From contig DUBV01000105.1 in assembly GCA_012960105.1 (NCBI GenBank), positions 1 through 54,466 of the forward strand: a stretch of DNA of 54,466 bases. Direction: 5' to 3'. The notes under the pieces are model-generated. The model saw only the letters and a program-made list of their open reading frames with translations, was not told the origin of the DNA and ran no database searches. This DNA comes from Thiotrichaceae bacterium (lineage in GTDB: Bacteria > Pseudomonadota > Gammaproteobacteria > Eutrophobiales > Eutrophobiaceae). Below, piece by piece: positions 43,253 to 46,705 of the stretch; within the stretch, counting starts at the first letter, position 1; each line of letters opens with the position of its first letter. The translations under genes and the position numbers were made by a program.

Positions 43253-45049
43253 TTACCAGTATTTTTCATTCGTCGAAGACTTTTGTTTCTGTTGCTGATA
43301 TTGATATTTGAATTTACGTCTTAACAAACCGGAAGGATCATCCGGTATACGACGCAACCATTGTTCTGCTGCCTGCTGTTCTTCATCAAGTTCATTCATT
43401 TCCTTTTGAGTTTGTTGTTCCTGTTCTTTATTCTCATCTTCTTTTGATTCTTCTTCAGCCTGCCGCTTCATTTCTTGTTTCTTTTCTTCTTCAGCTTCGT
43501 TTTTGTCAGCCTGCTGTTCAGAACTTTCTTGTTCATCCTGTTCGTTTTGCTGTTGTTCTGATTGTGAGTCTGATTGTTGTTCTCCTCCTGGCTCAGAATT
43601 CTGTTGTTCCTGATCAGACTGCTGGTCTTCGTTCTTTTCTGAATCTTGCTCTGATTTTTCGTTTGAATTTTCGTCTGATTGGGACGGCTGTTGTTTTTCT
43701 AATTCTTTCTCTACAAGTTCTTTATTAAATTTTGCATCTTGATTTTCAGGATTATTTTCCAGAGCTTGATCATAAGCAGTAATTGCGTCTTCATATCGTC
43801 CCTGTTTTGCTAAAGAGTTTCCTTTATTATAAAGACTACGCTCATCTTGATACTCATTTAATAATTCTTCTGCAGCAGCATAATCACCGGCTTTATATTT
43901 GGCCGCCGCTTTCCATTCATTGTCTTGAAATAAATCAGAAGCAACTGTGGCCTGTTCATTTTCTAAAGCACGCATAGCTTTTTGATTTTCATTCAACCAC
44001 AAATCATTCCATTCAAAAGCCATTGCATCATCAGGACTACTTATCATCAGACATATTAATATTGCTAAATAGCCACGCCTGAAACCAAATGCAACAATGG
44101 GTAAAATAAATAAGACTAACCACGGACCAAATTCATGCCATTGATCAGTTTTAAATTCTGTTTCCGTTTCACTATCAGATTCCAGACCACTATTAAACAA
44201 ATGATTAAGTCGTTCAATATCACCATCAGCAATCTGACTGGTTTCATAATAACCACCGCCTGCATTAGCCAGTTGACTAAGTACCTTCTGATTAAGTTTT
44301 GGTATAACGATGGTTCCGGCTCTATCTTTCAAAAAACCACTTTCACCCATGCTAACAGGAGCTCCTCCTTCAGTACCTAAACCGAGAATAGAAACCTGAT
44401 AACCACTTTCCTTTGCTCGAATAAAATTGCTTTCATATTTTAGTTCGACTTCATCACTGACCAATAAAATATGTCCCTGACTGATACCGGCTTGCTTTAA
44501 TAATTCGACAGATTTTGTAAGAGCAATATCAGTATTACTACCCAGAGCTGGCATTATTGCAGGAGATAATGACGTTAATAGTGAGTTAATCGTTTTAATA
44601 TCATCGGTTAACGGCGTTACCGTAAATGCATCTCCGGCGTAGACAAGTAATGCTGTTTGCCCTTCTTGCCTGAGTTTTAATAAATCAGCAATTTTAAAGC
44701 GTGCTCGTTCAAGTCGATTCGGCTTAATATCATCCGCATACATAGATAAAGATAAATCCAGAGCAATGACTAACGCTGATTCTTTTTGAAACACAGGTTG
44801 AGGCAAACGTTCCCAGCTAGGTCCCGCTAAAGCAATGATAATTAATAAAAAAACTAAAGCAGCTAAAACTATATTTGTTATTTTTTTTTGTCCCGATTTA
44901 CCGACTAATATATAAGGCAGTAATTCAGGGTCACAAACACTTTCCCAATGTTTATTTATCAAATGACGCTTAGCCAACTTCCATAAAATAAAAGCAACAG
45001 GAATGATCGCAATAAACCAATAAGGACGAATGAAATGAAATTCAGTCAT
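43253..45049 (-). CDS. BatB/BatC fusion: membrane VWA domain plus TPR and acidic tail
   Basis: About 598 residues: two N-terminal TM segments, a VWA domain (about 85-280) with a complete MIDAS start DLSLSMY (DxSxS), a third TM pair (about 305-340), a TPR region (about 370-450; YNKGNSLAKQGRYEDAITAY), and a ~130-residue Gln/Glu/Ser-rich tail. BatB and BatC are separate proteins in some bacteria. The ATG at 45049 (MTEFHF) is preferred; an upstream ATG at 45061 lies next to the inserted repeat element. Confidence 0.88.
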   Translation of the reverse strand: MTEFHFIRPYWFIAIIPVAFILWKLAKRHLINKHWESVCDPELLPYILVGKSGQKKITNIVLAALVFLLIIIALAGPSWERLPQPVFQKESALVIALDLSLSMYADDIKPNRLERARFKIADLLKLRQEGQTALLVYAGDAFTVTPLTDDIKTINSLLTSLSPAIMPALGSNTDIALTKSVELLKQAGISQGHILLVSDEVELKYESNFIRAKESGYQVSILGLGTEGGAPVSMGESGFLKDRAGTIVIPKLNQKVLSQLANAGGGYYETSQIADGDIERLNHLFNSGLESDSETETEFKTDQWHEFGPWLVLFILPIVAFGFRRGYLAILICLMISSPDDAMAFEWNDLWLNENQKAMRALENEQATVASDLFQDNEWKAAAKYKAGDYAAAEELLNEYQDERSLYNKGNSLAKQGRYEDAITAYDQALENNPENQDAKFNKELVEKELEKQQPSQSDENSNEKSEQDSEKNEDQQSDQEQQNSEPGGEQQSDSQSEQQQNEQDEQESSEQQADKNEAEEEKKQEMKRQAEEESKEDENKEQEQQTQKEMNELDEEQQAAEQWLRRIPDDPSGLLRRKFKYQYQQQKQKSSTNEKYW

Positions 45050-45064
45050 TACTACGAACACCGT

Positions 45065-45231
45065 TGTATATCCGTGATATTTGAAAATGCGTGTTTTAGA
45101 GTACGTCTATTTTTATTCAGGGCAAGGCGCGACGATGCGCATGGTCGTTCCCTGCAAAGAGGAGCAACGCTGCCAGGGATGAAGATAGGCGTGCTATAAA
45201 TATGCATTTTCAAGTATCACGGGTATATACA
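45065..45231. mobile_element. Long imperfect palindrome (MITE-like) between batA and batBC
   Basis: The left end (45065 onward, TGTATATCCGTGATATTTGA) and the reverse complement of the right end (TGTATATACCCGTGATACTT) form an imperfect terminal inverted repeat. Similarity continues inward: TCTATTTTTATTC on the left against CCTATCTTCATCC on the right. The centre contains a near-palindrome around GATGCGCATGG. The whole could fold as one ~165-nt hairpin. No frame is present. It is clearly more GC-rich in the middle than its flanks. The right terminal repeat provides the last six codons and stop of batA. Confidence 0.8.
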
Positions 45232-46199
45232 CGCATTAATAATAATGTTGCCATCAAACATAGAGCTACAGCTAAAGGCCAATAATACAATGCTGTTTTT
45301 GGCCTAAATCGTTGCACGTCTTTTTCGACTGGCTCAAGTTCATCCAATAGCTGATAAATCTTTACAAACTCTTCAGTATCTCTTGCACGGAAATAACGAC
45401 CGCCAGTTTTGTCGGCAATTGCCTGTAATGTTTTTTCATCCAGATCTCGAGACGGATTAACACTATGGGAACCTATCCATGTGCGAACTATCATTTCATC
45501 GGCACCGATACCGATAGTATAAATTTTTAATCCCTCACGCGCGGCTATGTCTGCTGCCGCTAAAGGTTCTACTTCACCTGCTGTGTTGGCACCGTCAGTT
45601 AATAATACAAGTACTCGACTTTGTTCATCTTGTTCACGTAACCGTTTAACTGCCAGACCTATCGCATCACCTATCGCTGTTAATTGTCCAGCTAAACCTA
45701 TTACTGACTCATGCAGCAAAGTCTTTACTGTTATGCGGTCAAAGGTTAGCGGCGTCTGTAAATAAGCTTGTTCACCAAATAAAATCAAACCTAAACGATC
45801 ACCAATACGACGTTCAATAAATTCTCCTGCAACTATTTTAGTTGCCACTAAACGATTTACGCGTCGATTGTTTATTACAAAATCTTCTTCTTTCATACTG
45901 CCTGATAAATCAACCGCCAACATCAAATCTCGACCACTTACCGGAACTTCGACAAACTCACCCAACCATAGTGGACGCATGGCGGCAGTAACTAAACAAC
46001 ACCATGCAATAATAGCCATCCATAGAAGTTTTCGCTTTACATCGACACGATGTTCAATTGTAGATTCCGTAATAAAATCATTTATAAACGGAACACGTAG
46101 AGCTGCTTCATTAACCACTTCGACAGGTCGTAATAACAATCGGAGAATAAAAGGTAATGGTAATAAAACAGCTACCCATGGCCAATCAAAATTTATCAT
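45210..46199 (-). CDS. BatA-like VWA-domain membrane protein
   Basis: A 329-residue protein with two N-terminal hydrophobic segments, a VWA domain (about 75-280) with MIDAS DLSGSMK and the later TLDRIT-like and LLTDGANTAG parts, and a C-terminal TM (about 305-322). The start at 46199 overlaps the DUF4381 stop (ATGA). The last codons (VYTRDT) and TGA are encoded by the terminal repeat of the inserted element, so the native C-terminus was probably altered. Part of the MoxR-DUF58-DUF4381-VWA-VWA-BatD cluster. Confidence 0.88.
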   Translation of the reverse strand: MINFDWPWVAVLLPLPFILRLLLRPVEVVNEAALRVPFINDFITESTIEHRVDVKRKLLWMAIIAWCCLVTAAMRPLWLGEFVEVPVSGRDLMLAVDLSGSMKEEDFVINNRRVNRLVATKIVAGEFIERRIGDRLGLILFGEQAYLQTPLTFDRITVKTLLHESVIGLAGQLTAIGDAIGLAVKRLREQDEQSRVLVLLTDGANTAGEVEPLAAADIAAREGLKIYTIGIGADEMIVRTWIGSHSVNPSRDLDEKTLQAIADKTGGRYFRARDTEEFVKIYQLLDELEPVEKDVQRFRPKTALYYWPLAVALCLMATLLLMRVYTRDT

Positions 46200-46705
46200 G
46201 ATAATTTTTGTGGCAAAGGGTTTCTGCCTGCTGACTCTATCCAAACTGAGGTTAAAAGTAGCAATTCAGTTGCATCATAATTTGGATTAGATTGATATGG
46301 CGCTTCGATTAATACTCGCCCAGTACCATTACTGAATGATTTATCACCCTGAAGTTGGTCTAGAAATAACAACCACTTTTCTCCAGTTATCGATGCCGAT
46401 TCATCTCGTTTAAATAAACTAATACTGACACGTCGGATTAATTCAGAAATTTCTTTTACTAATTCTGACTTATCCTGATTTAATTTAAATTCATTTTCTA
46501 TACGAGTTAGTTCTTGCCTAGCAAGATACAGTGCTGATATTCGATGTTTACGACGCCGTCTAATAAAGTAAACGGTAGCGACAATTATCATCAATATTAA
46601 CGTTAATAATATCCACCAACCAGGAGCTGGCGGCCACCATAAAGACGAATCAGGTAAATGAATATCGCGTAATGGTAATTCTGCAGGGTTATCTCCTTGT
46701 ATCAT
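46196..46705 (-). CDS. DUF4381-family membrane protein
   Basis: A 169-residue protein: a short N-terminal segment with LPLRDIHLPDSSLWWPPAPG, one TM (about 30-50), a basic cluster (RRRRKHR) and a helical cytoplasmic C-terminal domain (ELIRRVSISLFKRDESASIT). This is the DUF4381 pattern of Bat/MoxR clusters. ATGA-type overlaps tie it to DUF58 upstream and batA downstream. Confidence 0.85.
   Translation of the reverse strand: MIQGDNPAELPLRDIHLPDSSLWWPPAPGWWILLTLILMIIVATVYFIRRRRKHRISALYLARQELTRIENEFKLNQDKSELVKEISELIRRVSISLFKRDESASITGEKWLLFLDQLQGDKSFSNGTGRVLIEAPYQSNPNYDATELLLLTSVWIESAGRNPLPQKLS

Follow-up and report, generated by a model that had tools for sequence, protein, structure and literature searches.

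The window, i.e., the whole stretch of 54,466 nucleotides of Thiotrichaceae DNA that was analysed, contains a bat gene cluster on the minus strand. The gene order is MoxR (AAA_3), DUF58, DUF4381, BatA (VWA), a short palindromic element, BatB (VWA and TPR) and BatD (Table 1). The first-pass annotation had described the element as an imperfect palindrome with matching ends, and this description holds. The exact limits of the element, TATCCGTGATAT...GTATCACGGGTA, enclose an imperfect palindrome of 157 bp (45069-45225), and its two ends are identical, without gaps, at 24 of the 30 outermost bases. An inverted-repeat search yielded arms at 45047-45096 and 45198-45247 as the sole inverted repeat of the region. 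When folded as RNA, the palindrome reaches -95.5 kcal/mol on the plus strand (z = -9.8; 0 of 200 shuffles equal), whereas the fold of the minus strand, which is the sense strand of the operon, is distinctly weaker (-64.9 kcal/mol; z = -5.0). A search of Rfam assigned the element to no family.

Table 1. Features at the batA-batB junction, in positions of the window.
Feature	Position	Strand	Remark
IS630-type MITE, 157-bp non-autonomous palindromic element	45069..45225	.	ends TACCC...GGGTA
TA target-site copy, left	45067..45068	.	basis includes the empty sites
TA target-site copy, right	45226..45227	.	
Left terminal inverted repeat	45069..45090	+	TATCCGTGATATTTGAAAATGC
Right terminal inverted repeat	45204..45225	-	TACCCGTGATACTTGAAAATGC
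batA (VWA domain)	45210..46205	-	last four codons (TRDT) and stop from target copy plus terminal repeat
batB (VWA + TPR)	43253..45049	-	start ATG 45049 or GTG 45061, immediately beyond the hairpin

The batA frame continues into the element and ends there as ...LLLMRVYTRDT*, with its TGA at 45212-45210 within the terminal repeat, as had been read at first (VYTRDT-stop). In the sister species that are readable at this junction, the batA stop codon overlaps or abuts the batB start codon and no element lies between them, which confirms the earlier statement that the palindrome separates genes that are normally tightly linked. The batA C-termini of relatives, a comparison already proposed with that statement, differ from the one in the window, and these relatives lack the palindrome. 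When the element and one TA are removed in silico, the batA frame ends as ...LLMRVYNGVRSND (VYNGVRSND), and its TGA overlaps the batB start ATGACTGA. Since the window without the element thus has the overlapping layout of the relatives, and the sister species are without the element, the element was inserted. By this insertion, the seven C-terminal residues of the batA product were replaced by TRDT. batA is not a special case in this respect, since other copies of the element also end open frames: 6 or 7 of the 42 aligned copies described below terminate an open frame that is 100 codons or longer, mostly with the same TGA ten bases into the element.

The first-pass annotation had proposed to count the terminal repeat in the genome, and the count amounted to about 9-10 copies of the family. 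In the host genus, the family is found in 7 of 12 genomes, with 31 matches in one of them (G006). An alignment was made of 42 complete copies from six genomes of the genus (L001, L086-L133). They are usually 157-182 bp long, depending on the presence of an optional 22-bp module, and a few copies bear additional small hairpins. Both termini read TACCCRWGATACTTGRAAATGC, and the ATA...TAT at the element ends is retained in 40-42 of the 42 copies at each position. Thus, the element is short, does not contain a transposase gene and is present in multiple dispersed copies with terminal inverted repeats at both ends, all of which are characteristics of MITEs. Copies at the same site are common to different species in three cases (L093/L131, L117/L118, and L109/L119), and the insertions are therefore partly old. 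The orthologous copies L093/L131 and L117/L118 differ by gain or loss of the 22-bp module CCAACAGTAGGCGCTTTAGGCG; in L120, this module is located in the opposite arm.

The target of insertion was deduced from empty sites. The flanks of eleven other copies were joined and searched for in the genus, and eight further loci had a readable empty junction. At these loci, the target is TA and the net gain is two bases more than the element itself. Among younger relatives, represented by 60 copies of other genera, a TATA flank is present in 58 of 60 on the left side and in 55 of 60 on the right, as expected for duplication of TA. Insertion at TA with duplication, as seen at the eight loci, in the empty sites of batA and in the TATA flanks, is again a characteristic of MITEs of this type. 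Elements of the IS630/Tc1-mariner group insert at TA and duplicate it (PMC2170065). Two other placements were considered. A duplicated TA directly beside the CCC was rejected, because it would join the batA and batB frames into one and does not agree with the empty-site lengths; against insertion without any duplication, the TATA flanks of the young relatives and the IS630 ends favor duplication of TA. In the host genus, the flanking TA has its outer T in 29 of 42 copies on the left and in 23 of 42 on the right, i.e., this T was lost in 32 of 84 cases, whereas the inner A was retained in 82 of 84, even though the empty sites show TA. This combination is not explained by simple decay of a TA duplication and counts against the interpretation given below.

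Among those listed, matches to the end pattern occur in Alteromonadaceae, Pseudoalteromonas, Catenovulum, Shewanella, Psychrobium, Psychromonas, Methylophaga and Legionella, and in many gammaproteobacterial MAGs; L223, one of the matches, is a G006 contig. In L268, from Methylophaga sp. NORP53, ends of the same kind enclose an element of 1107 bp with an intact transposase of the IS630 family (NF033545, 221.8 bits at a cut-off of 100; DDE_3). Annotated IS630 transposases on plasmids of Klebsiella (pKP308-1) and Vibrio (pVPH2) are likewise bounded by ends starting with TATACCCGT. Compared with the left ends of the IS630 elements from Methylophaga and from the Klebsiella plasmid, the right end of the element in the window has 19 of 22 bases identical; in 2000 shuffles, no more than 12 were. 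The possession of ends in common with autonomous elements, here L268 and those of pKP308-1 and pVPH2, is a further characteristic of MITEs. Two more end pairs, in L249 and L229, were considered as autonomous elements and rejected, because they enclose no transposase, and IS630 relatives retrieved from a sample of the class do not have these ends. No copy of the window element was detected in the plasmid and phage collections searched, and the end pattern had no exact counterpart in viral contigs.

Several smaller and larger forms were encountered in these searches. In L216, L219, L223, L226, and L254, palindromes of 42-56 bp consist of little beyond the two ends. Insertions immediately against the end of another copy, with a TATA in common, are present at L268 48-93, L220 4997-5042 and L229 3355-3400. 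A size class of 123-146 bp (L197, L222, L240, and other loci) combines the same ends with a different core, GAATCCCCATGAGC...GATTGGGGTGAGCGA, and is strand-asymmetric too. In G010, a high-copy element (e.g., C1:13303-13611) occupies at least 35 places, and one copy is present in the own genome (C52:8459-8767). It contains a frame of 343 amino acids with a weak match, below the cut-off, to the IS630 model (positions 5-110), and no inverted TACCC ends were found around the copies checked.

An IS630-type MITE has thus been inserted into the end of batA, and it supplies the stop codon of this gene. The repeat family, the empty sites, the TA target, the matching IS630 ends and the changed C-terminus have all been shown, and the best overall explanation, in which we have high confidence, is that the element was mobilised in trans and inserted at a TA in the last codons of batA. 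A transposase of the IS630 family presumably recognised the ends of roughly 22 bp, TACCCRTGATACTTGRAAATGC, and acted on the element in trans. The element entered the TA dinucleotide within the last batA codons and duplicated it. The batA frame was closed within the first 20 nucleotides of the insert, since the end of the element has a stop codon in the frame in which batA enters, with a loss of seven residues and a gain of four. In this way, batA survived. The overlap between batA and batB is gone as a result of the insertion, and translational coupling of the two genes was probably lost with it. The hairpin in the polycistronic mRNA may also alter the stability of the mRNA. A helper transposase in the host genome is usual for a MITE but not required, and helpers are often lost. 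Among 53 genomes of the host family, many of which are draft assemblies, no IS630 transposase with matching ends was found, which is a point against this explanation; IS630-like matches do occur in this family, but they were rejected as helpers because their ends differ.

As an alternative, the element could be a mobile DNA with a hairpin that, on one strand and either as RNA or as single-stranded DNA, was under selection during its spread. In 40 of the 42 copies, one strand folds better as RNA owing to G-U pairs, with a mean difference of 18 kcal/mol, which speaks for such selection. So do the changes within the pairs, when the pairs are assigned without regard to strand and changes are called shared if present in at least three copies: the shared changes comprise 20 G-U vs. 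3 A-C, whilst the private ones comprise 20 vs. 18 (Fisher p = 0.011). The shared changes are inherited, however, and hence not independent, and a related class of 262 bp lacks the asymmetry (186 vs. 182). Furthermore, template switching re-matches the arms and thereby generates pairing without any RNA function. Such events have been described at quasipalindromes and RNA hairpins (PMC8794818). L119, at a site in G010/G004 that is shared with its ortholog L109, has a right arm that is the exact complement of the left one, whereas L109 is mismatched there. The right arm of L119 was rewritten in place by a template switch. Because arms are re-matched in this way, their pairing is no proof of RNA function. 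Selection of one strand is an unlikely explanation. That one strand, as RNA or single-stranded DNA, had to stay paired during the spread, and that the MITE would thus also rely on a strand-specific hairpin or a non-coding RNA, is distinctly unlikely as well; resident copies would in that case decay freely or be re-matched by template switching.

A regulatory role within the bat operon is a different matter. The first-pass annotation had suggested that the hairpin could attenuate or process the operon transcript. No terminator-like site was found at the element, Rfam gave no match, and the mRNA strand is the one with the weaker fold. The hairpin is nevertheless long, stable and located within an operon, and Correia elements, which resemble it in size and architecture, undergo RNase III cleavage when present in mRNA (PMC2649163). 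By analogy, cleavage of a hairpin in the operon mRNA by RNase III would be plausible, and attenuation or RNase III processing of the operon is a guess. That selection maintains a cis-acting attenuator or RNase III processing site in the bat operon appears very unlikely, as the family is present at many unrelated loci, the bat operon of the readable sister species does without the element, there is no terminator signal, the sense strand folds at -64.9 vs. -95.5 kcal/mol, and private mutations in resident copies favor retention of pairs on neither strand. As a short, palindromic and dispersed repeat, the element also resembles REP/REPIN or another palindrome of HUH transposases (RAYT, IS200/IS605), but its TATA-bounded inverted ends in common with DDE-type IS630 elements, its insertion at TA with a target copy left behind, and the lack of a GTAG-type motif at the ends make this extremely improbable.

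The IS630-type MITE in batA provides a clean case, in which the filled site can be set beside the empty ones of sister species and an IS of the helper type has matching ends. It rewrote the C-terminus of a protein and probably uncoupled two overlapping genes, neither of which was destroyed. The family is distributed over many gammaproteobacterial genera, marine and other. In addition, the re-matching of arms in place calls for caution in taking the covariation of hairpins as proof of RNA function.

A full-text search for the end sequences of the family retrieved no published description among the papers covered, and the sequence of the family may be undescribed; the kind of event is well documented and ordinary. 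Correia elements have ends TATAGTGGATTAA... and are hosted by Neisseria, whereas the ends here are TATACCCRTGATACTTG and the host is a gammaproteobacterium, and the element was thus rejected as a Correia element. The Correia/NEMIS elements are nevertheless similar in their length of 104-157 bp, their inverted ends, their size classes, their hairpin in mRNA and their insertion beside and into genes (PMC2649163). Their sequence is unrelated, and RNase III cleavage and promoters have been demonstrated for Correia elements, not for the element described here. ISY100 and other IS of the IS630/Tc1-mariner group also target and duplicate TA and have ends of ~24 bp (PMC2170065), but they encode a transposase, which this element does not. 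The Chunjie MITE of Geobacter uraniireducens, compared here via a review, was likewise inserted into an operon (PMC10969869), but it is a different element. The nearest precedent is RUP of the pneumococcus with IS630-Spn1, which is also short and gene-less, with ends matching IS630 and insertion at TA targets (PMC2229807). Unlike for RUP, no helper IS was found in the host family of this element, which further differs from RUP in the phylum of its host, in its sequence and in being palindromic along nearly its whole length.
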